A DNA stretch of 27,366 nt, taken from a virus. Each line of letters opens with the position of its first letter. Positions within the stretch are counted from its first letter, which is position 1. The translations under genes were made by a program, and so were the position numbers. This document shows positions 1 through 26,355 of this stretch, piece by piece. The notes beneath the pieces are model-generated. The model did no database searches and had not been told where the DNA came from. It worked only from the letters and a program-made list of their open reading frames with translations. The stretch covers positions 1-27,366 of IMG/VR virus record IMGVR_UViG_3300040961_000088; one strand, 5' to 3'.

Positions 1-198
1 ATGCCTCACAAATTCACCTTCAAAGAATGGGTCCAGGCGTTCGGAATCAACGCCACGGCAACGCTTTGCAGCGTTTCTGAACGGACTGTATACAACTGGT
101 TAACAGGGCACACCCGGCCCTCTCACGCCAACTGCCTCGTGATCTTGCAGCGGGCCAAGCGCCTCTCTTACGCCGACATCGTAGGGGGTGCGCAGTGA
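1..198 (+). CDS. small helix-turn-helix DNA-binding protein
   Basis: A 65-residue protein starting at the first base of the window, so its promoter is not visible. Residues 14-50 look like a helix-turn-helix: a short helix ending in TATLCSVSERTVYNWLTG, where 'VSERTVYNWLTG' has the shape of a Cro/YdaS-type recognition helix, followed by 'RPSHANCLVILQRAK'. Such proteins commonly act as phage early regulators. Its stop codon overlaps the GTG start of the exonuclease gene (GTGA at 195-198), so the two are probably translated together. No family name can be assigned with certainty. It may be Cro-like, or a transcription regulator of the recombination operon. Confidence 0.6.
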   Translation: MPHKFTFKEWVQAFGINATATLCSVSERTVYNWLTGHTRPSHANCLVILQRAKRLSYADIVGGAQ

Positions 199-1247
199 GC
201 ACAGCCACCCTCCAGACCCCCCACATTTTTGACGGACTGCCTTTGGCATCCCTTGCCCAGCAGGACGACGAAGCCCGCAAAGCCGCCTGGCTGGCCGAGC
301 GCCGGACCTGCATCACCGGCACCGACATTGCGGCCATCTTCGGCCTCAACCGCTTCGCCGGCCCCATCGACGTGTGGCTCTCCAAAAAGGCACCCGTCGC
401 CGTGGAAGCCAACGACGCCATGGAGTTCGGCAACCGCTTTCAGCGCCCGGTGCTGGAGGTCTACTCCGAGCGCGTTGGGATGCCCATCGAGTTCGCAGAC
501 CCTTGGACGCTTCACCGGGTTCCCGGCTTCCCACTCCTCGGGGCCTCGCTTGACGCCCGCTGGATCACCGGCGACCACCGCCCGGTGGACGCCAAGACGG
601 CCGGCTGGAAGTCGAGCGAATGGGGCGAAGCCGGGTCCGACGAATTCCCCACTTCCTATCAACTGCAGCTTGCCGTCCAGATGATGGCCACCGAGACCCA
701 GGTCGCCGATCTGGCGGTCTGTTTCGGCGGCTACGGCGGTCACAAGTTCGCCCGCTACACCATGGTGGCTGACCCAGAAGTGCAGGACGCCATCAGGGAC
801 AAGGCTGCTGACTGGTGGCAGAAACACATCATCGGCGACGTTCCCCCCGAGCCTGACGGTTCCGAAAACTACAGCGAATACCTCAAGGTTCGGTTCGCCC
901 GCTCAACCATGGTCACCAAGCCGGTCACGGCTGAGGTTGCCGAGTGGGCCGCATCGCTTCGGGAGGCCACCGAGCGCCTGAAGGTCATCGAGGGCGAAAA
1001 GGAACGGCTTCAGCAACTCCTCAAAACCTACCTCGGGGAAGCGTCCGCCATCCCCGGCATTTGCACCTGGAAGAACAACAAAAACAGCCTCAAAACCGAC
1101 TGGCAAGCCGCCTTCGGTGATCTGCGGAGCTACGTTCTGGACCCCGCAATTCAAAAGCTCTCCACCCCGCTCGACGCGGTAAGTCACGCCGTCGATTCCA
1201 ACACGCACGACATGCCCGGCGCCCGCGTTTTCAGGCTCGCCAAGTAA
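195..1247 (+). CDS. YqaJ-like (lambda exonuclease family) viral recombinase
   Basis: A 350-residue protein of the YqaJ/lambda-exonuclease family of PD-(D/E)XK nucleases. These enzymes digest one strand of linear double-stranded DNA and hand the 3' overhang to an annealing protein. Visible family features are 'RRTCITGTDIAAIFG' (residues 36-50, the R-x-x-x-I/T-G-S/T-D/E entry motif), 'MEFGNRFQRPVLEVY' (76-90), the acidic residue D120 in GASLDARW, and D132-x-K134 in 'VDAKTA', followed by the 'SYQLQLAVQM' helix. The start is GTG, which overlaps the upstream stop. The recT gene follows after 16 bases, the standard exonuclease-annealase pairing of phage recombination modules. The C-terminal third, beyond about residue 225, looks like a helical extension (ERLKVIEGEKERLQQLL). 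Confidence 0.92.
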   Translation: MSTATLQTPHIFDGLPLASLAQQDDEARKAAWLAERRTCITGTDIAAIFGLNRFAGPIDVWLSKKAPVAVEANDAMEFGNRFQRPVLEVYSERVGMPIEFADPWTLHRVPGFPLLGASLDARWITGDHRPVDAKTAGWKSSEWGEAGSDEFPTSYQLQLAVQMMATETQVADLAVCFGGYGGHKFARYTMVADPEVQDAIRDKAADWWQKHIIGDVPPEPDGSENYSEYLKVRFARSTMVTKPVTAEVAEWAASLREATERLKVIEGEKERLQQLLKTYLGEASAIPGICTWKNNKNSLKTDWQAAFGDLRSYVLDPAIQKLSTPLDAVSHAVDSNTHDMPGARVFRLAK

Positions 1248-1263
1248 CAGGAAAGAGACTCGC

Positions 1264-2205
1264 ATGGCAGATAACAACCAACTCGTAGCCCTCAACAGCG
1301 TCAAGGCCCTGCTGAATGCCAGCAAGGACGCCATCGCTTCCCGCCTCCCGCGTCACCTGACGGCAGACAGAATGCTCAAGGTTGCGCTCACCAGCATCAA
1401 CAAGACCCCCAAGCTTCTGGAGTGCTCCCGCGAAAGCCTCATGATGTCGATCATGCAAGCGGCCGAGTTGGGCCTTGAGCCCGGCGGCGCTCTCGGGGAA
1501 GGCTACTTGATCCCCTACAACTGCAAGGTCAAGGATGCGGACGGAAAAGAGCGCTGGCAGCAGCAATGCCAGTTCATCCCCGGCTATCGCGGCCTGATTG
1601 CCCTTGCCCGCCGCTCCGGGCAAATCGTCAGCCTTGAGGCGCATGTGGTTCACGCCAAAGACACCTTCGCTTGCCAGCTTGGTTTGAACCCTTCCCTCGA
1701 ACACACCCCCGCATGGGAAGAGACCGACCCCGGAGCTCTCCGCTTTGTCTATGCCGTCGCCAAGCTCAAGGACGGCGGGACTCAGTTCGAGGTCATGAGC
1801 AAGGTGCAGGTAGAGGCGATTCGCGGCCGCTCCAAGGCTGGAACTTTTGGCCCGTGGGTCACCGATTACGAGGAGATGGCCCGCAAGACGGTGGTTCGCC
1901 GCCTCTTCAAGTACCTGCCCGTATCGGTCGAGATGGCCCAGGCGTTGGAGGTCCAGGCATCCGCCGAATCCGGCGAGTTCGTGACCTTGGACGGCATCGA
2001 CGAAACCCCGGTGTTCACGGCGACTCAGCCCGTGCCGGAACTGACCGGCGAGACCCAGCCCGCAACCAGCGGCAAAGGCGGGGCCGAGCGGCTGCGGGAT
2101 GCGGTTAAAAGTACCACCAGAACCACAGCGCCAGCCGAAGCCCATCCTGTCACCACGGTCAAGCCGAACGGTCACGACACTGGTGATTCCGAGTACTTCA
2201 ACTAA
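1264..2205 (+). CDS. recT: RecT-family single-strand annealing protein
   Basis: A 313-residue RecT-family protein. RecT coats single-stranded DNA and anneals complementary strands, working with the exonuclease just upstream. Recognisable family segments are 'RMLKVALTSINKTPKLLECSR' shortened here to its core 'ALTSINKTPKLLEC', then 'SIMQAAELGLEPGG', 'GEGYLIPY', 'QCQFIPGYRGLIALARRSGQ' and 'WVTDYEEMARKTVVRRLFKYLP' (core 'EMARKTVVRRLFKYLP'). The last 80 residues or so are low in conservation and rich in T, A and P, as usual for RecT tails. An AAAGAGAC-type ribosome binding site lies just before the ATG. It is part of the plus-strand early operon. Confidence 0.95.
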   Translation: MADNNQLVALNSVKALLNASKDAIASRLPRHLTADRMLKVALTSINKTPKLLECSRESLMMSIMQAAELGLEPGGALGEGYLIPYNCKVKDADGKERWQQQCQFIPGYRGLIALARRSGQIVSLEAHVVHAKDTFACQLGLNPSLEHTPAWEETDPGALRFVYAVAKLKDGGTQFEVMSKVQVEAIRGRSKAGTFGPWVTDYEEMARKTVVRRLFKYLPVSVEMAQALEVQASAESGEFVTLDGIDETPVFTATQPVPELTGETQPATSGKGGAERLRDAVKSTTRTTAPAEAHPVTTVKPNGHDTGDSEYFN

Positions 2206-2241
2206 CCGCAAGCCGAACTGAGACCCGAAAAGAGGTTTGAC

Positions 2242-3408
2242 ATGGCAGCACTCGCGAACAACCTGACCATCTTCGAGGGGCGCACTGACAACGCGCCCCA
2301 ACTCGAAGTGGTAGACGACGGGGAAAGGCTCTCCGTAAACGGACAATTTGCGCTTCGTGACCTTTTCACCACAGAGGGCGGATTGGCCCCGATCATCAGC
2401 GCAATCGAAGACAAGGTGCGGGAGTTTGAACCCGACATGACCACAGCCAAGGGCCGCGCTGAAATCCGGGCAATGGCTCACAAGGTCACCCGCTCAAAGA
2501 CCTACCTTGAAGGCGTCGGGAAGGACGTAGCAGCCGAATACAAGGACTTGCCCCGCCGCATCGACGCCAACCGCAAGATGATGCGCGATAGCCTTGACGC
2601 CCTGGCCGAGCGCACACGCGCCGATCTGACCGCCTACGAGGAGCGCACCAAGGCCATCAGCGACCGGCTGAACAGCATCGACTCCATGCCGGTCATGTAC
2701 GCGCCCTCGACCAGCGCGGAAATCGCCGCGCAGATTGAAACCCTCGTCAACATGCCCCTGACGGCCGAGGCCTGGGAAGGTCTCCTCGATGAGGCATTGA
2801 CCATCACCCACCGCACCATCGCCGCTCTCAGGCAGATGCACACGGAAAAGGTCAGGGCCGAGACCGACGCCGCCGAACTCGCACGGCTCCGGGAGCAAGC
2901 AGCGGAACGTGAGCGCAAGGATGCCGAAGCGCAACGCCTGGCCGACGCGCAAGAGCGGGGCCGTCGTGAAGCCGAGCAGCGGGCCGAGAGTGAGCGGCAA
3001 GCGGCGCTGGGGCGTGAGGCTGAGGCGAACCGGCAAGCAACGCTGGCGCAACAGCAAGCCGAAGAGAGTGAACGCCGCCGGGTGGAATCCGAAGCGCGGG
3101 CCGCACAGGCTGCCATCGACGCCAGAGTGAAGGCCGAGGAAGACGCCGAACGGGCCGCAATCCAAGCCGTGGAGGCCGAGCAGGACCGGCAAGCAGCGGT
3201 GGCGCGCAAGGAAGCCGAAGACAAGGCAGCGCGGGAAGCCAACAAAGAGCACTCCCGCAAGATCAACTCCGAAGCCCTCGAAGGCATCGTCCAGGCCATC
3301 GTAGGCGCAAACACCAGCCTCGACGCTGACCAGATAACAGCGGTCGCCCGCGCCGTCACAGTCGCAATCATCAAGGGCGAAGTTCGCCACACCTCCATCA
3401 CCTACTAA
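2242..3408 (+). CDS. coiled-coil phage protein of the recombination module
   Basis: A 388-residue protein with an alpha/beta N-terminal part (about 1-110) and a long highly charged coiled coil (about 195-335), rich in Ala, Glu, Arg and Gln with repeated 'REAEQRAESERQAA'-like stretches. The N-terminal segment 'TTAKGRAEIRAMAHKVTRSK' with 'RRIDANRKMMRDSLD' resembles a protein commonly found beside recT in temperate phages, which some annotations call DUF1351-like. I regard that link as tentative. Its place between recT and the 3428 gene suggests a role in DNA recombination or replication. AAAAGAGG precedes the ATG. The coiled coil produces long antisense open frames that are not genes. Confidence 0.8.
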   Translation: MAALANNLTIFEGRTDNAPQLEVVDDGERLSVNGQFALRDLFTTEGGLAPIISAIEDKVREFEPDMTTAKGRAEIRAMAHKVTRSKTYLEGVGKDVAAEYKDLPRRIDANRKMMRDSLDALAERTRADLTAYEERTKAISDRLNSIDSMPVMYAPSTSAEIAAQIETLVNMPLTAEAWEGLLDEALTITHRTIAALRQMHTEKVRAETDAAELARLREQAAERERKDAEAQRLADAQERGRREAEQRAESERQAALGREAEANRQATLAQQQAEESERRRVESEARAAQAAIDARVKAEEDAERAAIQAVEAEQDRQAAVARKEAEDKAAREANKEHSRKINSEALEGIVQAIVGANTSLDADQITAVARAVTVAIIKGEVRHTSITY

Positions 3409-3427
3409 CCAGCAAGGAGACCGACAA

Positions 3428-3796
3428 ATGGCAGAAACGACAGTGAAGTGCAAAGAGTATCTCCGCTACCCGTTCACGGAAGAGGAGACGAGGGAAATCG
3501 CTAAGAACCTGGCGCTTTCCGTAACCGCCAAGACGCGCGCCGAGGAAGAGCAGAAATCCGCCCAGGCACAGTTCAAGCAGCGCATCGAGATTGAAATCAC
3601 CCAGATTCAGCGCCTCTCGAACAACATCAACATGGGCTGGGAGATGCGCGAGATTGAGTGCGTCGTCGAGTTCCACAAGCCCCGGCAGGGCGTGAAGCGC
3701 ATCATCCGCCTCGACACTGGCGAGATCGTCCGCGAACAGCAGATGTCCGGCGGCGAACTGCAAGAGAAGCTCTTTCCGGCAAACGCAACCGCCTGA
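3428..3796 (+). CDS. hypothetical phage protein with helical centre
   Basis: A 122-residue protein I cannot assign to a named family. Residues 15-65 are helical and charged (EEETREIAKNLAL, then EEEQKSAQAQFKQRIEIE). The C-terminal part looks like beta strands carrying 'VEFHKPRQGVKRIIRLDTGE'. The ATG has an AAGGAGA ribosome binding site eight bases upstream. It follows the coiled-coil gene by 19 bases and is clearly in the same operon. Similar small proteins sit in the recombination block of other temperate phages. No enzymatic motif is visible. Confidence 0.75.
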   Translation: MAETTVKCKEYLRYPFTEEETREIAKNLALSVTAKTRAEEEQKSAQAQFKQRIEIEITQIQRLSNNINMGWEMREIECVVEFHKPRQGVKRIIRLDTGEIVREQQMSGGELQEKLFPANATA

Positions 3797-3856
3797 CAAC
3801 CGCACTCAACCGGGGCGGTCTACCCGCCGCCCCCATAACCCGCAAGAGGAGGAACG

Positions 3857-3973
3857 GTGGGAACAACGATCACATTACGCGAACACGCCGCCCGGATGAA
3901 CAGCGTGTTGCACCTGACCGCGAAGGCCTCGGCCATACCTCAGGCGGTCACTGTACCAGGGTGTTTCGGCTAG
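3857..3973 (+). pseudogene. 5' fragment of a gene cut by the inversion breakpoint
   Basis: A GTG start at 3857 sits four bases after a strong AAGAGGAGG site (3844-3852). It opens a 38-codon frame beginning VGTTITLREHAARMNSVLHL and ending at a TAG at 3971-3973. It overlaps the 3' end of the minus-strand replication gene by about 100 bases, which is unusual for a real pair. Up to V31 (GTC at 3947-3949) it reads as a plausible N-terminus. If that codon is joined to the minus strand at 6836 the frame continues without a break as LSYASMRLRYPG and onward, giving 164 residues. I therefore read it as the first 31 codons of the gene whose remainder lies at 6435-6839. Confidence 0.6.
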
Positions 3974-4666
3974 GTAGGCACACGCGGCGCGGAAGTCGGG
4001 CAGCCAGCCGGGTTCCTTGAGCCGGGTTTGAATCACCTTCTGGCGGTTGAGCGTGCTCTTGGCCTGGGGGAGCTTGCCCTGGGTGAGTTCATTCCAGATC
4101 GTGACCACCTCGGCAGATTTCACAGCGGCGGCGGTCGATGCAATCGACGAAGGCTCTTGTTCTTTCTCTGGCTCTGGTACAGGACTCTGGCTCTGGACTC
4201 TGGTACAGGACTCTGGCTCTGGTAGTGGCATTTCGTGCGATTCTGTGCGCATTTGTGCGCACGGCTCCTCGTAACGTGCGCACGCTTTCTCCCTTTCCTT
4301 AAGCGAAAGGCGGCGCATCCGAGGCAATTCGCCGTTGGCATACCTCATGCCGTTGCGGGAGAGCTTGTTGTCGGTGGCGTCGTCGCTGTGGATATGCCAG
4401 TCGTGGACAATGAGGCGGTGTTCATCGTTCGCCTCAAGGAAGCCGGACTGCACCAGGGCAAGGACCATGGCCGATGCGTCACCGTCGTAAAACATCTCCA
4501 TGGCTATGTCTTCGTCGGTCATCTTCCCGATAGCGCCCGTCGGGGCCTGTTCGCCCGTTACATGCCAGAGAGATTCGACAATACCGAGAGCGAAGCAAGC
4601 GGGGATGTGCATCAGGTTCCCTAGGCGCCGCGTCTTTCGGTGAGTAAGTGTTCCCCTCAGTGCCAT
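3875..4666 (-). CDS. phage replication initiator-like protein, C-terminus replaced
   Basis: A 263-residue protein. It resembles phage replisome-organiser proteins: an N-terminal winged-helix-like domain (about 1-105, 'GALVQSGFLE'-type wing seen as 'VLALVQSGFLEANDEHRLIV' core 'LVQSGFLEAND', then 'VHDWHIHSDD'), a Pro/Glu/Ser/Gln linker (145-175) and a DnaT-like C-terminal domain beginning at 'VVTIWNEL' and reaching 'PDFRAACAYLAETPWYSD' (to D240). The usual next motif, N-D-R-G/Q-W then A-x-F/I-D-F, is missing. The final 23 residues are antisense to another gene's start. The missing motif is found at 6837-7088 on the other strand. The start is ATG at 4666 in a TGATG overlap with the nuclease gene, with AGGAG upstream. 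As written, the protein is probably impaired. Confidence 0.8.
   Translation of the reverse strand: MALRGTLTHRKTRRLGNLMHIPACFALGIVESLWHVTGEQAPTGAIGKMTDEDIAMEMFYDGDASAMVLALVQSGFLEANDEHRLIVHDWHIHSDDATDNKLSRNGMRYANGELPRMRRLSLKEREKACARYEEPCAQMRTESHEMPLPEPESCTRVQSQSPVPEPEKEQEPSSIASTAAAVKSAEVVTIWNELTQGKLPQAKSTLNRQKVIQTRLKEPGWLPDFRAACAYLAETPWYSDRLRYGRGLRGQVQHAVHPGGVFA
4172..4222 (-). repeat. 25-bp tandem repeat, period 26, in the linker of the replication gene
   Basis: Two identical 25-bp copies (4172-4196 and 4198-4222) built from CTCTGG units lie one base apart. The 26-base period is not a multiple of three, so the second copy is read in a different frame. The same DNA gives PEPESCT in one copy and QSQSPVPEPE in the other. 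Both frames are rich in P, E, S and Q, so the linker stays disordered. Confidence 0.85.
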
Positions 4667-5148
4667 CAGCGTGCTCCTGTCAAGAGTTCCATCAAGTCAT
4701 CCGGTGACCAGATAATTCCCACCAGCGCGCCGGCCTCGGCCATGGTGTCGAGAAAGGCAAGCTGCTCATCGGATGGTTTGCCCGGTGCGGCCTTTTGGAT
4801 CAACCGCCCTGTATTGGGCGATCTGGTCAGCCACTCAGGCGCTTTGACTTCGATGTAGAGCGCCCGGCCGCCGGGGAGAGTGCCCAGGATGTCGGACAGG
4901 CCAGCGGAGCAAGCGCCCTGTGTGCCGCCCTTCATGATTGAGGCGGTGTTGCGGACTCCAGCGCTTTTGAGCATCCTGCAAGCCCTGCCACGTAGCTTTG
5001 CGCCCCCGGCATCAACGGCCAGGGCGGGGATGCGATGCAGGTTGAGGGTGGCGAGTGCGTTCTTCTGGACGGTGGCCTCGGGTACGCATCCGAGGAGATA
5101 GGCGTCGTTGTAGCGGGAGCGGTCGAAGGTGTCGCGATAAACCCTCAT
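4666..5148 (-). CDS. VRR-NUC domain nuclease
   Basis: A 160-residue protein with a VRR-NUC (PD-(D/E)XK superfamily) core. The visible motifs are 'SAGLSDILGTLPGGRALYIE' with D86, then E100-V-K102, and 'GKPSDEQLAFLDTMAEAGA' with the family's Q and a hydrophobic helix, ending in 'VGIIWSPDDL'. Such phage nucleases are thought to act on branched or flap DNA during replication and recombination. The start is chosen at ATG 5148, which forms an ATGA overlap with the upstream stop (5147-5145). A GTG at 5175 would add nine residues but lies inside the previous gene. The stop overlaps the next start (TGATG at 4666-4668). Confidence 0.85.
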   Translation of the reverse strand: MRVYRDTFDRSRYNDAYLLGCVPEATVQKNALATLNLHRIPALAVDAGGAKLRGRACRMLKSAGVRNTASIMKGGTQGACSAGLSDILGTLPGGRALYIEVKAPEWLTRSPNTGRLIQKAAPGKPSDEQLAFLDTMAEAGALVGIIWSPDDLMELLTGAR

Positions 5149-6110
5149 GCCGTCACCGCCGGGAACTCTTTCCACTCGCGGCCGTCGAGCATGGCGCCAG
5201 CGGCGTCCTTGCCGAGCCGATAGACGTCAGGCGCATCGTCGCGGTGCAACTCTTCGCTCTGACGGGGAGTCAGCGAATCGTAAAGCCAGCGGCCATTCCA
5301 CCAGGTTGCAGTCCGCTCGGCGCGGGAAGGCAGAGAACCGGCGCATGCCCCAGGTGCCCACTCGCCCCATTGCTTGAAAAAGAAAGGTACCCCAGCGGTT
5401 TGGCACTGATCACGCAAAGAGCGCGCCCATTTAGGAAGCATCGGCCGTGCATTCGGCCCGCTTTCGCCTCCGCAGATCACCCAGTCGAGCCGCCCATGCT
5501 CCGGGCCGTCGCTTACTTCGCCGTGAATCGAGTGGTAGATGTCGCCTTCGTCGAGCGCGCTGAAGTGCCATTCATGGTCATCTGGCGCTGTGATGCGGGT
5601 CAGGTCCACCGGCCCAACCATCGGCTCGACGCTCACGCCGTGGACCGCCGCTGGTATCGAGAGCAGGATCGGGATGCGCAGATCGGCCATCGGCTGATTC
5701 TCGGCAGTGACCATGAGCCAGACGTTCGGGTAGCCGGTGCCCCAGTCGGCCGGCAGACATGCCGCGATGCGCTCGGGGCGCTTGGTGCAAAGCTGGTAGG
5801 TTAGGTTCGGCGTCTGCCGGATGATGGCCCAGGCTTCAGCGCGCCAGGCGTCGGCCTCTTCGATGAAAAAGTCAGACCACGAATCGACGAACACGCGGTT
5901 TATGTGCCCGTACTTTTCGCGGTTTTGTGCCCATTTCAGCGGGGCGTTGAAGGTCGCCGCGGCGGAACGAACCACCACATCGGGGGTCTGTCCATACCGC
6001 TTTTTGTCGGTGAACATGTAGCAGTTCTTGCAGCCGGGCGAGACCTTATGGCAGCCCTGCCAGCAGTTCCACGTTGCATCGGTCCAGGCAATTGCGGTGC
6101 TAGCGCCCAT
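5145..6110 (-). CDS. phage Gp37/Gp68 family protein (DUF5131)
   Basis: A 321-residue protein matching the Gp37/Gp68 (DUF5131) family: 'STAIAWTDATWNCWQGC' at the N-terminus, then C20-x6-C27-x2-C30 in 'CHKVSPGCKNCYM', 'FVDSWSDFF', 'QLCTKRPER', 'VSVEPMVGPV', 'WVICGGESG' and 'PFFFKQWGEW'. The three cysteines resemble a radical-SAM-type iron-sulfur site. The biochemical role of the family is not established as far as I know. The start at ATG 6110 fits the family beginning and has GGGGGTGG upstream. Fourteen more residues upstream (to 6152) look non-homologous. It overlaps the preceding gene by 11 bases. No TcmP-like partner gene is visible nearby. Confidence 0.9.
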   Translation of the reverse strand: MGASTAIAWTDATWNCWQGCHKVSPGCKNCYMFTDKKRYGQTPDVVVRSAAATFNAPLKWAQNREKYGHINRVFVDSWSDFFIEEADAWRAEAWAIIRQTPNLTYQLCTKRPERIAACLPADWGTGYPNVWLMVTAENQPMADLRIPILLSIPAAVHGVSVEPMVGPVDLTRITAPDDHEWHFSALDEGDIYHSIHGEVSDGPEHGRLDWVICGGESGPNARPMLPKWARSLRDQCQTAGVPFFFKQWGEWAPGACAGSLPSRAERTATWWNGRWLYDSLTPRQSEELHRDDAPDVYRLGKDAAGAMLDGREWKEFPAVTA

Positions 6111-6435
6111 CGGCCACCCCCAGGAAGAGCAGCGACTTCCAGACCTGCACATTGCGCCGGCGCGCAGATACCCGGCTCGACTTACGGAACCGGCTTGTCT
6201 GGGTGATGAGTCCGTTCCCCGCGGCGCGGCGGAATGCGGCCCCTACTGCGTTCGGGTGCAGAAAGTTGGTGACGGCGACGGCCTCAAGGATGGTCCAGAC
6301 CTCATCGGACGTAATCTCGGGCTGTTGCGCGGCGGCGGTGGCGATGGCGATGTAGCAGCGGCTGAATTCGGCGGTTGCGATGACCTTCTCAATGCCTTCG
6401 TCGCGATAGAACGCGGATAGTTGGGCAGACAACAT
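6100..6435 (-). CDS. putative winged-helix phage protein
   Basis: A 111-residue protein starting MLSAQLSAFYRDEGIEKV. The C-terminal half ('AVGAAFRRAAGNGLITQTSR' core 'FRRAAGNGLI', then 'RRRNVQVWKSL') has the layout of a winged helix: a recognition helix followed by basic wing residues. The same arrangement occurs in small proteins next to phage replication genes. The start is ATG 6435-6433, in a TGATG overlap with the upstream stop, with GAAAGGAGA eight bases before. A longer frame to 6465 is inside the previous gene. Function unknown; DNA binding is inferred from the basic C-terminus. Confidence 0.7.
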   Translation of the reverse strand: MLSAQLSAFYRDEGIEKVIATAEFSRCYIAIATAAAQQPEITSDEVWTILEAVAVTNFLHPNAVGAAFRRAAGNGLITQTSRFRKSSRVSARRRNVQVWKSLLFLGVADGR

Positions 6436-6821
6436 CAGCGGTCTCCTTTCAGGAAGTAGCCGCATTTGCAGCCTTCAACGGTGCAGCGGCATGGTTGGCC
6501 CGTCTCGTTGCGGGCGTGCTGTTTGATGTGGTGGCCGCAATAGGCCTTGTCGCACTGACATGCGACGATTTCACGCATGAGGCGGAAGGTGCGGGGCGCG
6601 TAGGTGTCGGGCTCGAACTGGCGGGGCATGCCCATCTCTTCGATGGCGGTTTCTTCAAGCTCGGCCCACTCGGCAATGAGCAGCGGCCAGGCTGAATTCT
6701 TCACCGCGCTCAGGAATTCAAAGGCGGGCTCACGCATCCACGGGTGATCTTTCAGCAGCCGGATACATGCGCCAAGCTCAGCGGGCTTTGTCGGTGCGCT
6801 GCCAGGGTAGCGGAGGCGCAT
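6435..6821 (-). CDS. Cys-rich hypothetical protein, 5' end lost at the inversion breakpoint
   Basis: The readable frame from ATG 6821 encodes 128 residues (from a GTG at 6848, 137). Neither start has a ribosome binding site. Residues up to about 70 are helical ('ELGACIRLLKDHPW', 'AEWAELEETAIEEMG'). The C-terminal 45 carry eight cysteines and a pair of histidines: C-x-C-x4-C-x-H-H, then C-x-C-x4-C-x-C, consistent with metal binding. The frame is open up to the breakpoint codon GTC at 6839-6837 and joins in frame to the fragment at 3857-3949. The intact protein would then be 164 residues with a strong ribosome binding site. Family not recognised. Confidence 0.65.
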   Translation of the reverse strand: MRLRYPGSAPTKPAELGACIRLLKDHPWMREPAFEFLSAVKNSAWPLLIAEWAELEETAIEEMGMPRQFEPDTYAPRTFRLMREIVACQCDKAYCGHHIKQHARNETGQPCRCTVEGCKCGYFLKGDR

Positions 6822-6836
6822 CGACGCATAAGACAG

Positions 6837-7088
6837 GACACCGGGCACAACGACCGGCAGTGGGTTGCAAACATCGACTTCGCGTTACAGGCCGGCAAGG
6901 CTACCGAACTGGCAGAGAAGGCCACACAGCAAGCACCGCAGAGTGCAGGAGCAATGAACCATGGGAACGTCCAGCATCACCGAACTGCTACCGACCAGCG
7001 CTACATCGATCAAATTGCCGCCCGTGATGAACGGCGGGCGCGTGAGGCCACCGAACACCCCGAGGCCGCTTTGCCGGTCCTGCAATAG
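6837..7088 (+). pseudogene. C-terminal fragment of the replication protein
   Basis: A plus-strand frame from D-T-G-H at 6837 to a TAG at 7086-7088 encodes 'TGHNDRQWVANIDFALQAGK', then ATELAEKA and a polar tail ending LPVLQ. The NDRxW-x2-A-x-I/F-DF pattern is the hallmark C-terminal motif of the replication proteins to which the minus-strand gene at 3875-4666 belongs, and that gene lacks it. There is no start codon with a ribosome binding site here. Joined after codon 240 of that gene it yields 'ETPWYSDTGHNDRQW', exactly the expected layout, and a 322-residue protein. It overlaps the start of the helicase-loader gene. Confidence 0.75.
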
Positions 7089-7857
7089 CAAGCCCTCGAT
7101 GAGCGAACCAGAGCCCGAGTTTGAGGGTCTGTGCTGGGGCTGTTGGGAAGACGCGCAAGCCATCCGGTATGCCGAGACGGAAGCCAAGCGCATCGAGACC
7201 GAACTTGAATCCCAGGTCACCGAGGATCTTCGCCACGTCTGCGGCCTAGCCTCCCGCGAGTGCAAAGCCGACTGGCAAAAGGTGCCCGAAGCCATCAAGC
7301 GGGCCATGCCCCGCCCTATCCTGCTTGCGCTCAGCGGCGGCAACGTGCCCGCAACCGGCTTCGGGTTGGGTGCTGACACCGGCTCAGGCAAGACGATGGC
7401 GCTGGCGGCGATCCTGCGCGGATTCCAGCGGGCCTATCGGAAGGCTTACGCCATCCGGCTGGTGGAAGAGACCCGGCGCCACGGTAAACAGGCCGACGTG
7501 AGGTTTCAACATCAGGCCGTGTGGCTGAGTTGGCCCGACAGCGTCACCGCCATCCGGCTCCATGCCATCGACGGCATAGCCGAGCAGATGCTTGAGCGGG
7601 CTGAGTCCGCGCCGCTGCTGATCCTCGATGACCTCGGCCGGGAGCGCATCAAGGGCGCTTACGTGGACGACTTCGCCGCATCGCAGCTTGACCGCCTCGT
7701 GAATCATCGCTACCGCGAAGAACTGCCGACGCTCTGGACCTCAAACCTGCCCGAAATCGACCTGACCAGCATCTATGGCGCCGCGCTGGTCTCACGGCTC
7801 ACCGAGGACGCGCCCCTGATCTGGCTCGACAAGCTGCCGAGCATGAGGTTGAAATGA
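6961..7857 (+). CDS. DnaC/IstB-like ATPase, putative helicase loader
   Basis: A 298-residue AAA+ ATPase. Walker A is GADTGSGKT at residues 137-145 and Walker B is LLILDDLG at 219-226. The downstream 'LDRLVNHRYREELPTLWTSN' with its sensor-1-like T-S-N and 'ALVSRLTEDA' matches DnaC/IstB-type loaders, which place the replicative helicase on origin-bound initiator. The N-terminus holds a four-Cys cluster (C38, C41, C58, C61), a possible zinc finger. The ATG at 6961 has AGGAG nine bases upstream. ATG 7027 is a possible alternative that shortens the overlap with the replication fragment. Placement directly after the replication protein's C-terminus is the expected initiator-loader order. Confidence 0.88.
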   Translation: MGTSSITELLPTSATSIKLPPVMNGGRVRPPNTPRPLCRSCNSKPSMSEPEPEFEGLCWGCWEDAQAIRYAETEAKRIETELESQVTEDLRHVCGLASRECKADWQKVPEAIKRAMPRPILLALSGGNVPATGFGLGADTGSGKTMALAAILRGFQRAYRKAYAIRLVEETRRHGKQADVRFQHQAVWLSWPDSVTAIRLHAIDGIAEQMLERAESAPLLILDDLGRERIKGAYVDDFAASQLDRLVNHRYREELPTLWTSNLPEIDLTSIYGAALVSRLTEDAPLIWLDKLPSMRLK

Positions 7858-8657
7858 CCGCTTTCACGTACATGTCCATGTGTTCCGGCATAGAAGCGGC
7901 GTCTGAGGCGTGGTCTCCGCTCGGTTGGCGGCCGACCGTCCTTTCCGAGATTGAGGACTTCCCGCGCAGTGTTCTGATTCAGCGTCAAGGAGCAGAGGAT
8001 ATGCGCTACGCACGGGCCGAGGTTGGCCCCGGCCTCTGGGGCGACTTCACCGCCCTCCGGGTCCGTCACCTTCGCCGGTTCGGTGTCCCGATGCCGGATG
8101 TTCTCGTGGCCGGAACGCCCTGCCAAGCATTTTCGGTCGCCGGTTTGCGTAAATCCCTTCAGGATGACCGCGGAAATCTAACCCTTTCCTTCGTGAGGCT
8201 AGCCAATGCAATTGACAATGTTCGACTTCGAGAGGGCAGTAAACCCCTCACTGTTGTCTGGGAAAACGTACCCGGAGTGCTCTCCGTTGGAGACAACGCC
8301 TTCGGTTGCTTCCTCGCCGCGCTGGTGGGAGCAGACTCCCCACTCGTTCCGCCAGCAGGACTCCGCTGGACAAACGCAGGTTTGGTTACTGGACCCAGGC
8401 GAACCGCAACGTGGATCGTCAAAGACGCTCAACATTTCGGCGTGGCCCAGCGACGGGAGCGCGTGTTCGTTATGGCAAGTGCTGGAGACCCAGCCTATCC
8501 CGCGCAAGTATTTTTTGAGCGCAAAAGCCTGCATGGGCATCATCCGCCGCGCCGGGAAGAGGGGCAAGGCTTTACCCACGATGTTGCTCCGAGCCTTATG
8601 GGCAGTGGTCGAGGCGTGGAACGGGGGGGGGGAAGAGCAGAGGACAAGATCCAGTAA
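7854..8657 (+). CDS. C5-cytosine DNA methyltransferase, truncated by frameshift
   Basis: A 267-residue frame carries the catalytic motifs of C5-cytosine methyltransferases: motif I 'MSMCSGIEAASEAW' near residue 8, the catalytic PCQ of motif IV in 'GTPCQAFSVAGLRKS', motif VI ENVPG and motif VIII 'AQRRERVFV'. Phage enzymes of this type usually run on through a long variable recognition region to motif X. Here the frame ends soon after a run of ten G at 8623-8632, and motifs IX and X are absent. The GRGVERGG before the run would continue as KSRGQDPV if the run were 8 or 11 bases. The ATG overlaps the loader's TGA (ATGA at 7854-7857). The protein is probably inactive as written. Confidence 0.85.
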   Translation: MTAFTYMSMCSGIEAASEAWSPLGWRPTVLSEIEDFPRSVLIQRQGAEDMRYARAEVGPGLWGDFTALRVRHLRRFGVPMPDVLVAGTPCQAFSVAGLRKSLQDDRGNLTLSFVRLANAIDNVRLREGSKPLTVVWENVPGVLSVGDNAFGCFLAALVGADSPLVPPAGLRWTNAGLVTGPRRTATWIVKDAQHFGVAQRRERVFVMASAGDPAYPAQVFFERKSLHGHHPPRREEGQGFTHDVAPSLMGSGRGVERGGGRAEDKIQ

Positions 8658-8769
8658 TTCCGGTATTCCAGAGGTCTCAGGAACTCTCGGGGCGCACAAA
8701 ACCGGGGGATGGGGAGCAGACCTCGATACGACCGGCTGTTTCATTCCCACAGGTTGTGGGTGCTCTTAG
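8206..8769 (+). CDS. overlapping ORF within the methyltransferase gene
   Basis: A 187-residue frame, shifted +1 relative to the methyltransferase and lying mostly inside it. It starts at ATG 8206 with GAGG eight bases upstream. The segments 'PSLLSGKTYPECSP', 'ACSLWQVLETQPIPRKYFLS' and 'GIIRRAGKRGKALP' match a small phage protein I know from other genomes (typical core CSLSQVLE then ILRRAEKRGKxLP) that is encoded across a methyltransferase gene. The two frames pair as expected: RRAGKRGKALP in one, PPRREEGQGF in the other. Its function is unknown. Beyond about residue 145, past the G run, the frame probably reads methyltransferase-type variable sequence and not its own. Confidence 0.65.
   Translation: MQLTMFDFERAVNPSLLSGKTYPECSPLETTPSVASSPRWWEQTPHSFRQQDSAGQTQVWLLDPGEPQRGSSKTLNISAWPSDGSACSLWQVLETQPIPRKYFLSAKACMGIIRRAGKRGKALPTMLLRALWAVVEAWNGGGEEQRTRSSNSGIPEVSGTLGAHKTGGWGADLDTTGCFIPTGCGCS
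8623..8632 (+). repeat. run of ten G at a frame break
   Basis: Ten consecutive G inside the methyltransferase gene. Nine, or 8/11, would join its 5' part to one of the two alternative downstream frames that keep methyltransferase-like sequence. Slippage or a read error here would change the protein. Confidence 0.9.
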
Positions 8770-8980
8770 CGACGGCGCTCATTTCGGGGGGGCAGAATGG
8801 TCAGGACGCCTATTCTGGCCGAATCATCCCTTGCTCATTCGGTGACGTGCCATCAGGTCAAGGGCGGCGACCCGACAACCGACAACTATGTGGTAACCGG
8901 GGGTTTCTTTGACCAGCCAACGCATAGTCTCCGGGCCGATGGATTCGACGCCTCTGAAGACGGGACCGGGCGCGGAACAC
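8658..8980 (+). pseudogene. frameshifted remnant of the methyltransferase variable region
   Basis: No single frame is open, but pieces typical of the variable region of phage C5-methyltransferases appear in turn in different frames: 'VSGTLGAHKTGGWGADLD', then 'VVGALSDGAHF', then 'GQNGQDAYSGRIIP' (after a run of seven G at 8786-8792), then 'SLAHSVTCHQVKGG' and finally 'GFDASEDGTGRGTP'. At least four frame changes are needed within about 320 bases. The sequence ends abruptly near 8980 where tail-gene sequence begins. Motifs IX and X are never reached. This is either a decayed gene or a stretch of base-calling errors. Confidence 0.65.
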
Positions 8981-8981
8981 C

Positions 8982-9218
8982 ATTGCCACCGGCAACAACA
9001 TCGATCTGAACAACCCACTCATGGGCTCGGCTACCATCTTCAAGCTCAACGCCTTCAACACCTACGGCGGGAAGCAGTTCGGCTACACACTCGCCGCAGT
9101 CATCTTCCCGAAACTCTCCCTGGCGTCCAAGCAGGACGATCACACCGAGATCGATTTGGAATTCCAGGCGTTCGCCGACTCTCTCGACAACGTCATCAAC
9201 GTCTACACCGCACAGTAA
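8982..9218 (+). pseudogene. C-terminal fragment of a major tail (tube) protein
   Basis: A frame running to TAA at 9218 encodes about 78 residues: 'TIATGNNIDLNNPL', 'FKLNAFNTYGGKQFGYTLAA' and 'LEFQAFADSLDNVINVYTAQ' (core 'LEFQAFADSLDNVINVY'). Beta-rich sequence of this kind, followed at once by tail-chaperone genes, fits the end of a siphovirus tail-tube protein. These proteins are normally well over 150 residues, and the N-terminal part is absent. An ATG at 9021 has no ribosome binding site. The frame starts inside sequence that belongs to the methyltransferase, so the junction near 8980 is a fusion of unrelated genes. The tube assignment is by position and shape, not by a diagnostic motif. 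Confidence 0.55.
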
Positions 9219-9278
9219 CCCGGTGCGCGCCGTCTGAGAGGGCGGCGCGTTCCTATCTCAGCCATGGAGGCCGAAAGC

Positions 9279-9611
9279 ATGAGCACCGTCACGATTCAAG
9301 GCACCGAGTACGATCTTCAACCCTTCACCGCCGGGCAGTTGCGCCACCAGGCGTCTGCCAAGTTGGCAGCTATCGACGAAATCAACGGCCAGCTTCAGGC
9401 CGGCACAATCTCACCCATGAAGGCCATGCCTGAGATGGTTGGTCACTGCTGCGATCTAGTTCACCTTTCGCTGTCGAACAAGTACCCCGATCTGACCTTG
9501 GAAGCGGTCGAGACGATGCCCTTTGCGGAGATCCAGAAAGCCGTCATCGGCGTTGCGGAGGTCTCCGGACTCAAGGGGGAAGCGAAGCCTCAGCCGAAAA
9601 AGAGCCGCTGA
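9279..9611 (+). CDS. tail assembly chaperone (gpG-like)
   Basis: A 110-residue protein, 'MSTVTIQGTEYDLQPFTAGQ' followed by a helical middle and a basic tail 'KPQPKKSR'. It lies between the tube fragment and the tape measure, the normal position of the tail chaperone that wraps the tape measure before tube assembly. The ATG at 9279 is preferred because GGAGG lies eight bases upstream; an ATG at 9264 is upstream of that site. The 3' end carries AAA-AAG codons just before the stop, where ribosomes can slip into the next frame. Confidence 0.75.
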   Translation: MSTVTIQGTEYDLQPFTAGQLRHQASAKLAAIDEINGQLQAGTISPMKAMPEMVGHCCDLVHLSLSNKYPDLTLEAVETMPFAEIQKAVIGVAEVSGLKGEAKPQPKKSR

Positions 9612-9832
9612 ACTGGGGCAGGTTGTACGGGCTTCTCATCACCGCAACCGGATGGACGGCGCGCACTGTCGATGCGACTCCATGGCCGGACGTTTTGGAC
9701 CTTCTGGATTATTGGAAGGTCAGCCCGCCGGTTCATGTGCTGGTGCGGGCTTACATGGGCGGCGGAAGTGAAGAAAAGGCAGTAACCCCGATGACTGAGG
9801 CCGAGCTTGCGGCTGGCATCGTCGGATTCTAG
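9599..9832 (+). CDS. tail chaperone extension made by -1 frameshift (gpT-like)
   Basis: A 77-codon frame, one base back from the gpG-like gene, beginning 'EPLNWGRLYGLLITATGW' and ending AAGIVGF. It has no good start codon (a TTG at 9623 without a Shine-Dalgarno site) but is open across the end of the upstream gene. Moving back one base on the AAA AAG codons (tract GAAAAAG) gives a fused chaperone of about 184 residues. Lambda G/GT and many other tailed phages use exactly this arrangement. 'DVLDLLDYWKVSPPVHVL' is of the usual type for the extension. The slip site is not a perfect heptamer, since the P-site would pair imperfectly. Confidence 0.7.
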   Translation, partial: KEPLNWGRLYGLLITATGWTARTVDATPWPDVLDLLDYWKVSPPVHVLVRAYMGGGSEEKAVTPMTEAELAAGIVGF

Positions 9833-9840
9833 GAGGCACC

Positions 9841-12459
9841 ATGGGCGCGGGCGATAATCCCGATCCAATTCAAGTAACGATTACCGCCCAAATCCAGGGC
9901 CTCATGGATGGGCTGAGCGATGCCACCGCCGGCGTGAAGACTGCCACGTCTGAGATGGCCGACTCGTTCTCTGGAGTGAAGGGCGAAAGCGCTGATGCGT
10001 TCGAGGAAATGGCGGGGCAATCCCGTGAAGCCGCCGAAAGCATGGAGGGCGATTTCTCCCGCACAGAGGCCCGCCACGCTGCCCACATGCTGGGGATGAA
10101 CCGCGCCGTCGGTGGCTTCGTTGCCACGCTCCCCGGCGTCGGTCAGGCCTTGTCGATGGCCTTTGCACCGTTGGCGATCATGGAGATGATTGAGTGGATT
10201 GCCAAGGGCGTCGAAAAGCTGATGGAGTTCCGGGAGGCCGGGAAAAAGCTGACTCAAGACCAGGGGGATTTTGAGACGGCCGTAAACAACTCGTTCAACT
10301 CTCTGGACGAGAAGCTGATTCAGGCCGAGAAAAAGACCGACGAACTCGCGGGCGACCATTTAGGCGCTCTACAGAAGGAACTCCAGCTTATCGACATGAC
10401 GTCGATGAAGGATCTGGTCTCCGAGTTCGACTTGGTCGAAAAGGCGGCGGATAAGGTCTTTGCTGACCTGTCTAGCCACTGGTACACGTTCGGGAAGGGC
10501 TCAGACGGCGCGAAACACGCCATGGATGAGTTCAAGGGGCAGTACGACAATCTGCTTTCGCAGGGCAGGGATAAGGACGCGAGCAACCTGCTCTCGGGCA
10601 CCTTGCAGACAGCCTATGACGTTCTGGCGGCTCAAGAGACCATCGCCAAGAACCGCAAGAGCGGCGATGGCCCGACGGATGAGAGCCACGCGGCAGAGCA
10701 GGTGCTTGCCACCCACAAGGTGAGCCTGACCGTCTCTGAGGATGAAGTTGCGGCACAGAAGCTGCTAGTCGAAAGCCTGGGTCAACAGGTGATGGCTCAG
10801 GAGACGATTAACCAGCTAAAGACGACGGACGTCACGAACGCCACGACTCAGGAGCACAAGAAAGGCAACAGCGCGGCTCAGGCGCAAGCGGAAGCGCGGC
10901 TGAAGGGCATCGAGCAGGGAAACGCCGCTGCCTTGGAGGCTGAAGACAAGGGCGCCGATGAGGCCCTGAAGTTGCAGGAAGCCGCCATCAAGCAAGAAGT
11001 TGCGCTTGCCATCGAGGGCGGTCAACTCAAGGCCGCGGCTGAGCTCGCCGCGCTGCCGAAGTACATCTCCACTCAGCAGTCTTTCACCCAGGCCAAGTTG
11101 ACGGCTCTGGACAAGGACCACGCGGCGCAATTGAAGGCCAACGCGGACGAGCGGGCGATCTTGGAGGCGGGGAATTCGGGCGGCCAGAACAACGCCAAGC
11201 TGATCGAGAACGCCAACCAAAAAGCGGCTCTCGAATCGAAGTACCAGACCGAGCGCACGTCGATCATCGCCGCCGGCAAAGCGGCCGTCATGCAACTGGA
11301 GACGGAAGAGGCCAATCAGCGCACAGAACTTGCCCACAAGGGAGTCGAGGCGCGCGTTGCCCTGGCCGAGGAAGAGAGCAAGCGGAAGGAGAGCGCCGCC
11401 AGAGACGCCGCCGCCGAAAGCATCAAGCGGACTCAGCAGAATGCACAGGAAGAATTGAAGGCCGTCGAGGTAAGCCTTCAGCGCGGGCTCATCACCCGTC
11501 AGGCAGCGTACAACGCAAAGAGGGCCATCTTAGAGCGGGAAAAAGCAGACGTTGACGCGGCCTACGATGGTGAAAAGAGCAAACTGGAGGGGCTGATTGC
11601 TGCCTACCAGGCTCAGCAAGCCACCCTCAGCGCAACCGATCCGGAGTACAAGAAGCTCACAGCGGACATCAACCAGCTTCAGGCCGCTATCGCCAAGGCG
11701 CATTCGTCTGAGGTCGAGTTCGGGTCAAAGATGGACACCGACGTCAAGGCCCTGAGCAACGACTCCCGAACGATGACCACCTCGTGGACCCAGTTCTTCA
11801 CCAAGTTCCAGGTGGATGCCAAACAGGCCACCGACACTCTGCGCACCGGCCTTCAGGCGTCCATTACCCAGATGAACACTGGGCTTGCGAACGCCTTCAG
11901 CAAGAGCATAGTGGAGGGGAAGAGCTTCGGTCAGGCCATGCGTCAGGTGACCGGCCAGATCCTTGAGCAGTTCATCAGCATGTGCGTGAACATGGCCTTG
12001 CAGTGGGCTGAGAGTCAACTGATGATGGCTATCCTTGGAAAGGCGACTCAGGCCGCTTCAGGGATTACGCAGGTGACGAGCAACGCCGCTGTCGGCGCTT
12101 CTGCGGCTATGGCATCCACATCCGCGATTCCCATCGTCGGGCCGGGGCTAGCTCCCGCTGCGGGCGCTGCGATGTTCGCCGGTATTCTTGGCACTTACGG
12201 GCCGCTGGCATCGGCGGCCGGCGGCTGGGAGCGCGTCCCGAATGACACCTTATCGATGCTGCACAAGAACGAGCAGGTTCTCCCGGCCAGCTACGCGCAA
12301 GGCCTGAGAGACTTGGTTTCCGGGGGCACCAGCGGCGGCGGAATCACGCACATGGAACCGCACTTCCACGGTGTCATCGACGCCAAGAGTTTCTTTCAGC
12401 AGAATCAGGGCCACCTTGTCTCGACGATCAAGGACGCGGTGGGCAATCGACGGACTTAG
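9841..12459 (+). CDS. tail tape measure protein
   Basis: An 872-residue protein, the longest tail gene before the fibre. It is mostly helical, charged and Ala/Gln/Lys/Glu-rich with long coiled-coil stretches (about 290-620), as expected for the molecule that sets tail length. A hydrophobic segment lies near residues 87-120 ('VGGFVATLPGVGQALSMAFA' region), and a second Ala/Gly-rich hydrophobic region near 740-790. The end carries the family-like 'GGWERVPNDTLSMLHKNEQV' followed by LPASYAQGL. An AGGAGG site lies before the ATG. The stop overlaps the stop of the convergent gene at 12456 by three bases. Confidence 0.9.
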   Translation: MGAGDNPDPIQVTITAQIQGLMDGLSDATAGVKTATSEMADSFSGVKGESADAFEEMAGQSREAAESMEGDFSRTEARHAAHMLGMNRAVGGFVATLPGVGQALSMAFAPLAIMEMIEWIAKGVEKLMEFREAGKKLTQDQGDFETAVNNSFNSLDEKLIQAEKKTDELAGDHLGALQKELQLIDMTSMKDLVSEFDLVEKAADKVFADLSSHWYTFGKGSDGAKHAMDEFKGQYDNLLSQGRDKDASNLLSGTLQTAYDVLAAQETIAKNRKSGDGPTDESHAAEQVLATHKVSLTVSEDEVAAQKLLVESLGQQVMAQETINQLKTTDVTNATTQEHKKGNSAAQAQAEARLKGIEQGNAAALEAEDKGADEALKLQEAAIKQEVALAIEGGQLKAAAELAALPKYISTQQSFTQAKLTALDKDHAAQLKANADERAILEAGNSGGQNNAKLIENANQKAALESKYQTERTSIIAAGKAAVMQLETEEANQRTELAHKGVEARVALAEEESKRKESAARDAAAESIKRTQQNAQEELKAVEVSLQRGLITRQAAYNAKRAILEREKADVDAAYDGEKSKLEGLIAAYQAQQATLSATDPEYKKLTADINQLQAAIAKAHSSEVEFGSKMDTDVKALSNDSRTMTTSWTQFFTKFQVDAKQATDTLRTGLQASITQMNTGLANAFSKSIVEGKSFGQAMRQVTGQILEQFISMCVNMALQWAESQLMMAILGKATQAASGITQVTSNAAVGASAAMASTSAIPIVGPGLAPAAGAAMFAGILGTYGPLASAAGGWERVPNDTLSMLHKNEQVLPASYAQGLRDLVSGGTSGGGITHMEPHFHGVIDAKSFFQQNQGHLVSTIKDAVGNRRT

Positions 12460-12707
12460 TCGGATGGGGCGATGCAGAGGCTCGTGTACTTTGCGTGAGC
12501 CAAGCAGTCAAGGTATGCAGCCGCCCGCCGCGCCCGCTCGTGTTCCGCTTCCCGCCGCTGGTTTGCTGCCGACTGAAGCGTCCAGCCGATCCACGCCAGC
12601 AAGACAACGACGGCTAAAGCAAACCAAGGCTTCCAGGACCGGGGCTTTTCTTCCTCGGGCTCTAACTCGTAATCAGACGTGGAATCTTCGAGGGACAGCA
12701 TCGACAT
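12456..12707 (-). CDS. small single-pass membrane protein (cargo gene)
   Basis: An 83-residue protein on the strand opposite to the tail genes. An acidic N-terminus (LEDSTSDYELEPEEEKP) is followed by one transmembrane segment 'WFALAVVVLLAWIGWTL' and then a basic amphipathic helix 'NQRREAEHERARRAAAYL'. The start at ATG 12707 has AAGGAG eight bases upstream; a longer frame to 12758 is unsupported. Its orientation and position right after the tape measure mark it as an inserted cargo ('moron') gene. Such single-pass proteins often act on the host envelope, for example in superinfection exclusion, but nothing here proves that. Confidence 0.65.
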   Translation of the reverse strand: MSMLSLEDSTSDYELEPEEEKPRSWKPWFALAVVVLLAWIGWTLQSAANQRREAEHERARRAAAYLDCLAHAKYTSLCIAPSD

Positions 12708-12821
12708 GGTGGTACTCCTTGCCCTTTCATCTTCACCGCACCAGGTGCTGGGCGTCAAAGGTTCGCCTCAGTTTCGCGCATAAAACCCCAACCCACACAA
12801 CAAGATGCAACCCACAGGACA

Positions 12822-12850
12822 TTTACAAAACACGGCAGATGCGCTATCTT
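12822..12850 (+). promoter_or_regulatory. sigma-70-type promoter for the 12864 gene
   Basis: A -35 TTTACA (12822-12827), a 17-base spacer and a -10 TATCTT (12845-12850). The transcript would begin near 12857, only a few bases before ATG 12864, giving an almost leaderless message for this cargo gene. Confidence 0.5.
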
Positions 12851-12863
12851 GCAGGCTGAAGCC

Positions 12864-13115
12864 ATGCCGCCAAAATACGCCGCAACCCGACGCCGCCTGT
12901 TGGCCCGAGAGAAGGAACTCCTCAAAGAGCTTGAGGACGTTCGAACCTCGATTGCGGCTTGCAAGCAAGCGATGGAATGCCCAGCGCCCCTGATGAAGGA
13001 ATTCAAGGAAGAGGGGCGTATCACCTCGGGGCGTTCCGCCAGCGCAAGGGCTCTCCATTTGCGTGATGCGCGTCTGGGAAGCACGGACCCCGATCCCGAC
13101 CGCAAGCCCAACTGA
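12864..13115 (+). CDS. small hypothetical cargo protein
   Basis: An 83-residue basic protein, 'MPPKYAATRRRLLAREKELL', with a helical N-terminal half (REKELLKELEDVRTSIAAC) that could form a coiled coil, and a polar tail ending DPDPDRKPN. A frame from TTG 12849 is possible, but ATG 12864 suits the promoter spacing better. Its stop lies six bases from the convergent hicB stop. It is outside the tail operon in function, with its own promoter and neighbours that are cargo genes. Family not recognised. Confidence 0.55.
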   Translation: MPPKYAATRRRLLAREKELLKELEDVRTSIAACKQAMECPAPLMKEFKEEGRITSGRSASARALHLRDARLGSTDPDPDRKPN

Positions 13116-13121
13116 CCGCGC

Positions 13122-13538
13122 TTAGACCGCCCGAATCTCCAGATTCTTCCCCAGCACCTTCAGCGCCCCGGCGATACCGTCAATCTTCGACGTGTGGCGC
13201 CAGTCAATCAGCCTGTTCACTTCCTGCCTGGTCATCTTCAGCCGCCGCGCCAACTCGGCCGGCCTGACCTTCTGAGCCGCCATTTCATTCAAGAGCAGGA
13301 TCTTCGCGGCGTAGCTGGCCGGGAGTTCTACCACATGCTGGCCGCGCTTCAGTTTCGACGGCGCGGGAATGGGTAGACCCTCCTCGATGTAGTAATCCAA
13401 GGCTGATTCCAGAACGTCTGCTGCATGGAGCAGAGCGTCTTCCACGTCTTCACCCTGGGTGATTGCCTCGGGGATGTCGGGGAAGGTGACAACGTAGCCG
13501 CCTTCCTTTTGCAGTGCGAGATGTGCCGGATAGCGCAT
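13122..13538 (-). CDS. hicB: HicB-family antitoxin
   Basis: A 138-residue HicB antitoxin. The N-terminal half is the partial RNase-H-like HicB fold: 'MRYPAHLALQKEGGYVVTFP' then 'DIPEAITQGEDVEDAL' and 'ESALDYYIEEG'. Residues about 92-125 ('RPAELARRLKMTRQEVNRLI') are a helix-turn-helix, which binds the operon's own operator. It neutralises HicA and represses transcription. The ATG at 13538 is five bases after AGGAGG, and the gene starts eight bases after the end of hicA, in the hicA-hicB order. Confidence 0.93.
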   Translation of the reverse strand: MRYPAHLALQKEGGYVVTFPDIPEAITQGEDVEDALLHAADVLESALDYYIEEGLPIPAPSKLKRGQHVVELPASYAAKILLLNEMAAQKVRPAELARRLKMTRQEVNRLIDWRHTSKIDGIAGALKVLGKNLEIRAV

Positions 13539-13546
13539 GTTTCCTC

Positions 13547-13723
13547 CTATTTGAGCCCTAGCTGCTTTTTGATGCCTTCGACCAGCCCGGTCTTAAGTTC
13601 CTTCGAGTGCATCGGCAGGAAGGATGTCTTTCCGTTCAGCTTCACCTTCAGATGGGAGCCTTTCGCGCCCTCGAATGTCGCTCCCTGTGCCGTCAGCCAC
13701 CGTTTGAACTCCGTGCTCTTCAT
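13547..13723 (-). CDS. hicA: HicA-family toxin (mRNA interferase)
   Basis: A 58-residue protein beginning MKSTEFKRWLTAQGATFEGA and containing AKGSHLKVKLNGK, with the conserved catalytic histidine in G-S-H, then SFLPMHSKELKTGLVEGIKK and a C-terminal QLGLK. This is the double-stranded-RNA-binding-like fold of HicA, which cleaves mRNA. It is complete at the usual length. The ATG at 13723 has no Shine-Dalgarno site; the promoter places transcription start at or next to the start codon. It is the upstream partner of hicB and probably stabilises the prophage in its host or acts against other phages. Confidence 0.93.
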   Translation of the reverse strand: MKSTEFKRWLTAQGATFEGAKGSHLKVKLNGKTSFLPMHSKELKTGLVEGIKKQLGLK

Positions 13724-13729
13724 GTATCC

Positions 13730-13758
13730 AATGTACGCAATATTGCTTACACTGTCAA
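13730..13758 (-). promoter_or_regulatory. hicAB promoter
   Basis: On the minus strand, -35 TTGACA (13758-13753), 17-base spacer and -10 TACATT (13735-13730). The expected start is about 13723, the A of the hicA ATG, so the message would be leaderless. The operator palindrome lies in the spacer. Confidence 0.75.
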
Positions 13759-13773
13759 GAGAAATGTAAGCAA
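13732..13773. promoter_or_regulatory. probable HicB operator, three TGTAAGCAA-type half-sites
   Basis: A near-perfect 20-bp palindrome, TGTACGCAATATTGCTTACA (13732-13751), lies between the -35 and -10. A third half-site TGTAAGCAA (13765-13773) lies just upstream of the -35. Such sites suit autorepression by the HicB helix-turn-helix. Confidence 0.65.
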
Positions 13774-13839
13774 AAATGAATACTATTTTCCTTTTCCCGT
13801 TTCGCGGTGTGGGAAGGCGGTTTTTGGCCCCCGTTTCGC

Positions 13840-13857
13840 TCTAAACTGTGTCTAAAC
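13840..13857 (+). repeat. TCTAAAC direct repeat upstream of the DUF2460 gene
   Basis: TCTAAAC occurs at 13840-13846 and 13851-13857, eleven bases apart, i.e. about one helical turn. It lies 40-57 bases before the start of the distal tail operon and could be a regulator site. Confidence 0.35.
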
Positions 13858-13896
13858 GGCCACACAACGCGGCCAAAATGATACAGAGGGCAGCGA

Positions 13897-26202: not shown

Positions 26203-26355
26203 CTAAACACATGTCACGATAACCTTTTAAGTGCATCGGTGAGGGGAGTCACGCTTCTTCGGCCCGGTGGCCCCTATAGTGAAGTCATCTTTCCAGACAG
26301 TTCATATCCCCATGGGCCACCTTCAAAGAAATCTCTTTTATTTTCCGGGGAAGTA

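Follow-up and report, generated by a model that had tools for sequence, protein, structure and literature searches.

We put a probability of about 0.5 on the reading that the window, the whole 27,366-nucleotide stretch of record IMGVR_UViG_3300040961_000088 that was analyzed here, was a recently rearranged, nonfunctional copy of a temperate siphovirus-like phage made by short-homology rejoining. The intact phage was estimated to be about 39 kb long. The window differed from otherwise identical contigs by a balanced inversion, which cut a replication gene, and by a deletion, which removed the packaging and head genes. The 263-aa open reading frame (ORF) found at the cut should be read neither as a new replication protein nor as a switch, but as part of a broken or misassembled copy. 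Features of the window are listed in Table 1.

Table 1. Features of the window
Feature	Positions	Strand	Basis or remark
g166 codons 1-33 (166-aa gene, PHROG 1229, function unknown)	3857-3955	+	Source of antisense tail
Chimeric replication-protein ORF, 263 aa	3875-4666	-	Residues 1-238 authentic, 239-263 foreign
Inverted segment, 2,889 bp (edges ambiguous by 3-bp seam)	3952-6840	.	BLASTN to L023
Left seam, TGT common to both partners	3952-3954	+	BLAST block overlap, sequence
VRR-NUC/Holliday-junction-resolvase-like gene, intact inside inversion	4666-5175	-	PF08774 below its cut-off; PHROGs 93, 5702
DUF5131 gene, intact inside inversion	5145-6152	-	PF07505, E 3e-77
121-aa gene, function unknown, intact inside inversion	6100-6465	-	PHROG search, tblastn mapping
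g166 remaining codons 33-166	6435-6839	-	tblastn-type mapping to window
Right seam, ACA (reverse complement of TGT)	6838-6840	+	BLAST block overlap, sequence
Severed C-terminus of replication protein (residues 239-320, NDRQWVANIDF motif)	6840-7088	+	tblastn, intact protein on window
DnaC-like helicase loader, just outside inversion, unaffected	6961-7857	+	PHROG 50, E 7e-23
Truncated start of second methyltransferase ORF (about 60 of 232 codons)	8797-9000	+	tblastn
Deletion seam, about 2 bp (AC) shared	8977-8979	+	11,621 bp absent relative to L023 and L027
Presumed tail-tube protein, last 79 codons (165-243), start deleted	8979-9218	+	tblastn; PHROG 8234 unnamed, role from gene order
Tyrosine integrase; stop codon is exact record end	26239-27366	+	PF00589, E 1e-25

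The inverted segment and the chimeric replication gene

A search for relatives identified L002 (IMGVR_UViG_3300017988_000949), whose full contig, L023, was 19,456 bp long. In a BLASTN comparison with L023, window positions 1 to 3954 and 6838 to 8978 were colinear and positions 3952 to 6840 were reversed, all at 100% identity and with zero mismatches over 8,978 bp. The inversion was base-exact and balanced; its two junctions were reciprocal and lossless, and both were present in the window. Two genes were cut, the replication gene and g166, and both were intact in the uninverted contig (L002 positions 5001 to 5963 for the replication gene and 2732 to 3232 for the 166-aa g166 ORF). In that contig, all five genes of the segment were co-directional with their neighbors. 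In the window, the 5' frame of g166 now stopped after 38 codons.

The chimeric ORF ended in ...AETPWYSD followed by RLRYGRGLRGQVQHAVHPGGVFA, which amounted to 23 residues past PWYSD. According to the initial annotation, these last 23 residues came from the antisense of another gene. The antisense origin was correct, in that the tail was the antisense of the first ~33 codons of g166 (GTG at 3857 on the plus strand), but the foreign stretch was about 25 residues long and included S239 and D240, because the intact 320-aa protein of the uninverted contig read ...AETPWYTGHNDRQWVANIDFALQ.... The authentic C-terminus, of about 81 residues (TGHNDRQWVANIDF...), was found by tblastn on the opposite strand, 2.9 kb away, just where the annotation had placed the expected NDRxW/ANIDF motif. 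This displacement was not a chance similarity, since it involved a single inverted block in an otherwise colinear 100% match.

The intact L002 protein matched PHROG 345 (E 7.5e-11), PHROG 9474 (E 1.1e-10), and PHROG 10469 (E 1.5e-7), and the labels that it received from PHROGs were replication initiation O-like, replication initiation, and DnaD-like helicase loader. A DnaC-like gene (PHROG 50) was located immediately 3' of the intact replication gene. Thus, the 320-aa form resembled O-like/DnaD-like helicase-loader proteins both in its matches and in directly preceding a DnaC-like loader, whereas the window form was cut after residue 238 and continued into a meaningless tail. These matches agreed with the replication role that had been proposed, but they did not establish the exact DnaT label. 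A sequence search of the PDB yielded no match, and a Foldseek search with the model of mean pLDDT 51 yielded nothing at E < 1.

Among the relatives, the C-terminal domain was kept by L002 to L004, L008, and L010 to L014, and a more distant version was present in L005 to L007. The relatives that kept this domain ran on into a GxNDRxW or GDNDRRW segment, and none of them ended with the short tail, which bore out the earlier view that the tail after PWYSD was alien to such proteins. The conserved GxNDRxW...D segment of these relatives was absent from the chimeric ORF. The window form was a truncated initiator in which the N-terminal winged-helix-like part was kept and the conserved C-terminal end was lost; given the loss of this segment, it is plausible that the cut initiator would fail to start normal replication.

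AlphaFold predictions of the two versions, which the initial annotation had suggested comparing, were only moderately informative (mean pLDDT of 51 for the intact form and 49 for the cut form); the foreign tail was predicted with very low confidence (pLDDT of about 24 to 31), as expected of disorder. The intact C-terminus formed a helix at residues 243 to 268, and residues 10 to 80 were well predicted in both versions.

Some relatives had only one of the two domains in common with the replication protein: the N-terminal domain in L009 and L035, which had other C-termini, and the C-terminal domain in L008, L010, L013, and L014. Because relatives matched either domain alone, the linker looked like a domain-exchange point. 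The linker (window positions 4172 to 4222) also contained a 13-bp-spaced tandem repeat.

All of the family members that spanned the junctions were uninverted. Specifically, the uninverted order was also found in L003, L004, L010, and a 28-kb contig; the replication-gene junction was intact in L003, L004, L008, and L010; and an intact g166 together with a cassette co-directional with its neighbors was found in L003, L004, L010, and the headless contig G007. Neither inverted junction had an exact match in IMG/VR: 21- and 26-mers spanning them hit 0 contigs, a count from which the window's own record was possibly excluded. The 21-mer across the uninverted left junction was found in two contigs, that of L002 and the independent G007. 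A search for relatives based on the integrase returned the contig of L003 only.

Loss of the head block

The window departed from L023 at position 8978/8979, and window positions 8977 to 18369 were 100% identical to a second contig, L027 (IMGVR_UViG_3300014658_000034). L023 and L027 shared an 883-bp overlap of 100% identity, and joint placement of the window on the two contigs gave 11,621 bp as missing, a stretch located on L023 positions 1 to 10477 and L027 positions 884 to 2025. Lost with this stretch were the remainder of the methyltransferase, the large terminase subunit, the portal, the head-maturation protease, a 489-aa protein presumed from gene order to be the capsid (PHROG 13692), the head-tail adaptor, the neck and tail-terminator genes, and codons 1 to 164 of the presumed tail-tube gene. 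With the terminase, portal, capsid, and connectors absent, virions would be impossible whatever the replication protein does. Any replication defect of the cut initiator would be largely moot, since the same record lacked the whole packaging and head block.

The head block was in place in the 40-kb relatives G002 and G005. Eighteen contigs carried the tail-tube gene, and those with enough upstream sequence had capsid genes there, except for the lineage represented by G006 and G007. A 20-mer across the deletion seam matched one contig, where the 25-bp identity was due to chance and the surrounding sequence was unrelated, and the deletion junction was unique to the window record.

The G006/G007 lineage was an independent headless lineage, represented by two metagenome contigs whose sequences agreed to 99.99% across 18.2 kb. 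It lacked the loader, terminase, portal, and capsid genes, and its tail module looked complete. In this lineage, the replication gene ran on in frame into the final 22 residues of the head-tail adaptor (positions 3933 to 4943 in L038/L046 of G006 and 17396 to 18406 in G007). A tail-only particle from these phages is conceivable.

As a separate observation, a cytosine-methyltransferase-like gene was divided between two ORFs that lay in different frames (window positions 7854 to 8657 and 8797 onward; L002 positions 6729 to 8370). The split was also kept in L004, with 99 to 100% amino acid identity.

Origin of the rearrangements

The 3-bp seam of the inversion was near chance level, as 5.9% of random balanced inversions shared at least 3 bp. 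No seam-flanking inverted repeats beyond 3 bp were found, and the local inverted-repeat score was like that of random pairs (P of about 0.19). No invertase or recombinase was recognized in a scan of genes within and next to the segment, which covered the small ORFs in part, and the sole recombinase of the serine or tyrosine kind that was identified was the integrase, 19 kb away. With 2 to 3 bp shared, no inverted repeats above chance, and no invertase recognized nearby, the three seams fit either illegitimate joining or an artefact. Ordinary repeat recombination was not favored, because experimentally confirmed spontaneous inversions in Salmonella had at least 12 bp at the junction (PMC3411829), far more than the 3-bp seam. 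This gap, like the near-chance level of 3 bp, counted against a real copy.

If the copy was real, the inversion and the deletion would both be products of accidental illegitimate (short-homology) rejoining in a prophage free of selection, and the 23-residue tail would simply reflect the coding content of the strand antisense to g166, with no function of its own. In support of a real copy, one uninverted contig was 100% identical over window positions 1 to 8978, and a second one, identical over positions 8977 to 18369, supplied the missing 11,621 bp. In addition, G006/G007 had lost the head block independently, which suggested that headless derivatives exist in this phage family. Inversions and deletions have been described as building up in prophages that are unable to excise (PMC6379469), and the window was similar to such defective (cryptic, "grounded") prophages in that it kept the integrase and tail genes, lost the packaging and head genes, and contained genes cut by rearrangement. 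It differed from them in that its rearrangements were extremely recent, with no other substitution relative to the intact contigs, and in that host integration was putative. Nearly as likely as a real copy was an artefact of library preparation, assembly, binning, or record handling, in which case no such natural molecule would exist. The otherwise 100% identical contigs from other metagenomes were uninverted and undeleted, and the two rearrangements were accompanied by no other substitution in 18 kb, which would fit an artefact too; the 2- to 3-bp seams were within the range expected of chimeric joins; and both inversion junctions, like that of the deletion, were unique to the window record, no second record with either window junction being found. 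However, reciprocal and lossless junctions are unusual for chimeric reads, two unrelated chimeric reads would hardly give both, and k-mer assembly, which depends on shared stretches much longer than 3 bases, does not usually produce them either. The head-block deletion in the same phage family, seen in two assemblies, also argued against an artefact. If the copy was real, it was an unremarkable defective prophage sampled shortly after it broke, and its breakpoints were unusually clean to read because its intact parent was still sampled elsewhere. If it was an artefact, a virus-database record can hold a balanced inversion together with a deletion of 11.6 kb, and gene calling by itself would flag neither.

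Two further readings were judged unlikely. The initial annotation hinted that the window represented one orientation among flipping states, and the event was indeed balanced and exact, with genes on both sides hit symmetrically, as might be expected if a programmed 2.9-kb cassette flip (phase variation) swapped the C- and N-termini of the replication initiator and g166. In the Mu G, P1 C, and Qin P segments, such flips take place at inverted-repeat crossover sites with a serine invertase gene alongside, and the alternative gene ends are functional. The window segment was like the Mu G segment, the P1 C segment, and the PinQ-inverted P segment of Qin (PMC12529663) in being a few-kb flip that exchanged gene ends, but no crossover repeats, invertase, or functional alternative ends were found. 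The seam repeats were no longer than 3 bp, no serine or tyrosine invertase was recognized beside the cassette, all other contigs had a single orientation, and the inverted form gave junk tails instead of an alternative domain. A programmed switch was thus very improbable, and it was rejected for want of repeats, an invertase, or a second example; a reversible switch between replication-competent and replication-dead prophage states, driven by an unfamiliar recombinase with a 3-bp core, seemed slightly more improbable still. Hardly any weight was given to the short tail as a natural variant of the replication-protein family, with a gene that works as it stands. The N-terminal domain was unchanged and predicted with good confidence, and L009 and L035 likewise had this domain alone in common with the replication protein. 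However, neither a RLRYGRG-like tail nor an end at PWYSD was found in any relative, the tail was predicted at the pLDDT given above, and the missing C-terminus was intact nearby on the other strand. This variant was rejected on the strength of the homologues that continued into the GxNDRxW segment.

Record ends, host, and tail fiber

The record started exactly at an ATG (window positions 1 to 3) and ended exactly at the integrase stop codon (positions 27364 to 27366), and L023 ended at the same ATG, which suggested gene-based provirus trimming. The host was probably an acidobacterium; the only pointer was a single distant relative in a genome scan, a metagenome-assembled genome of the Acidobacteriales that shared the N-terminal domain. 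A large tail-fiber-like gene (window positions 19028 to 20356) contained 10 or more copies of a repeat of about 30 nucleotides, which encoded an alanine/isoleucine/threonine-rich repeat.
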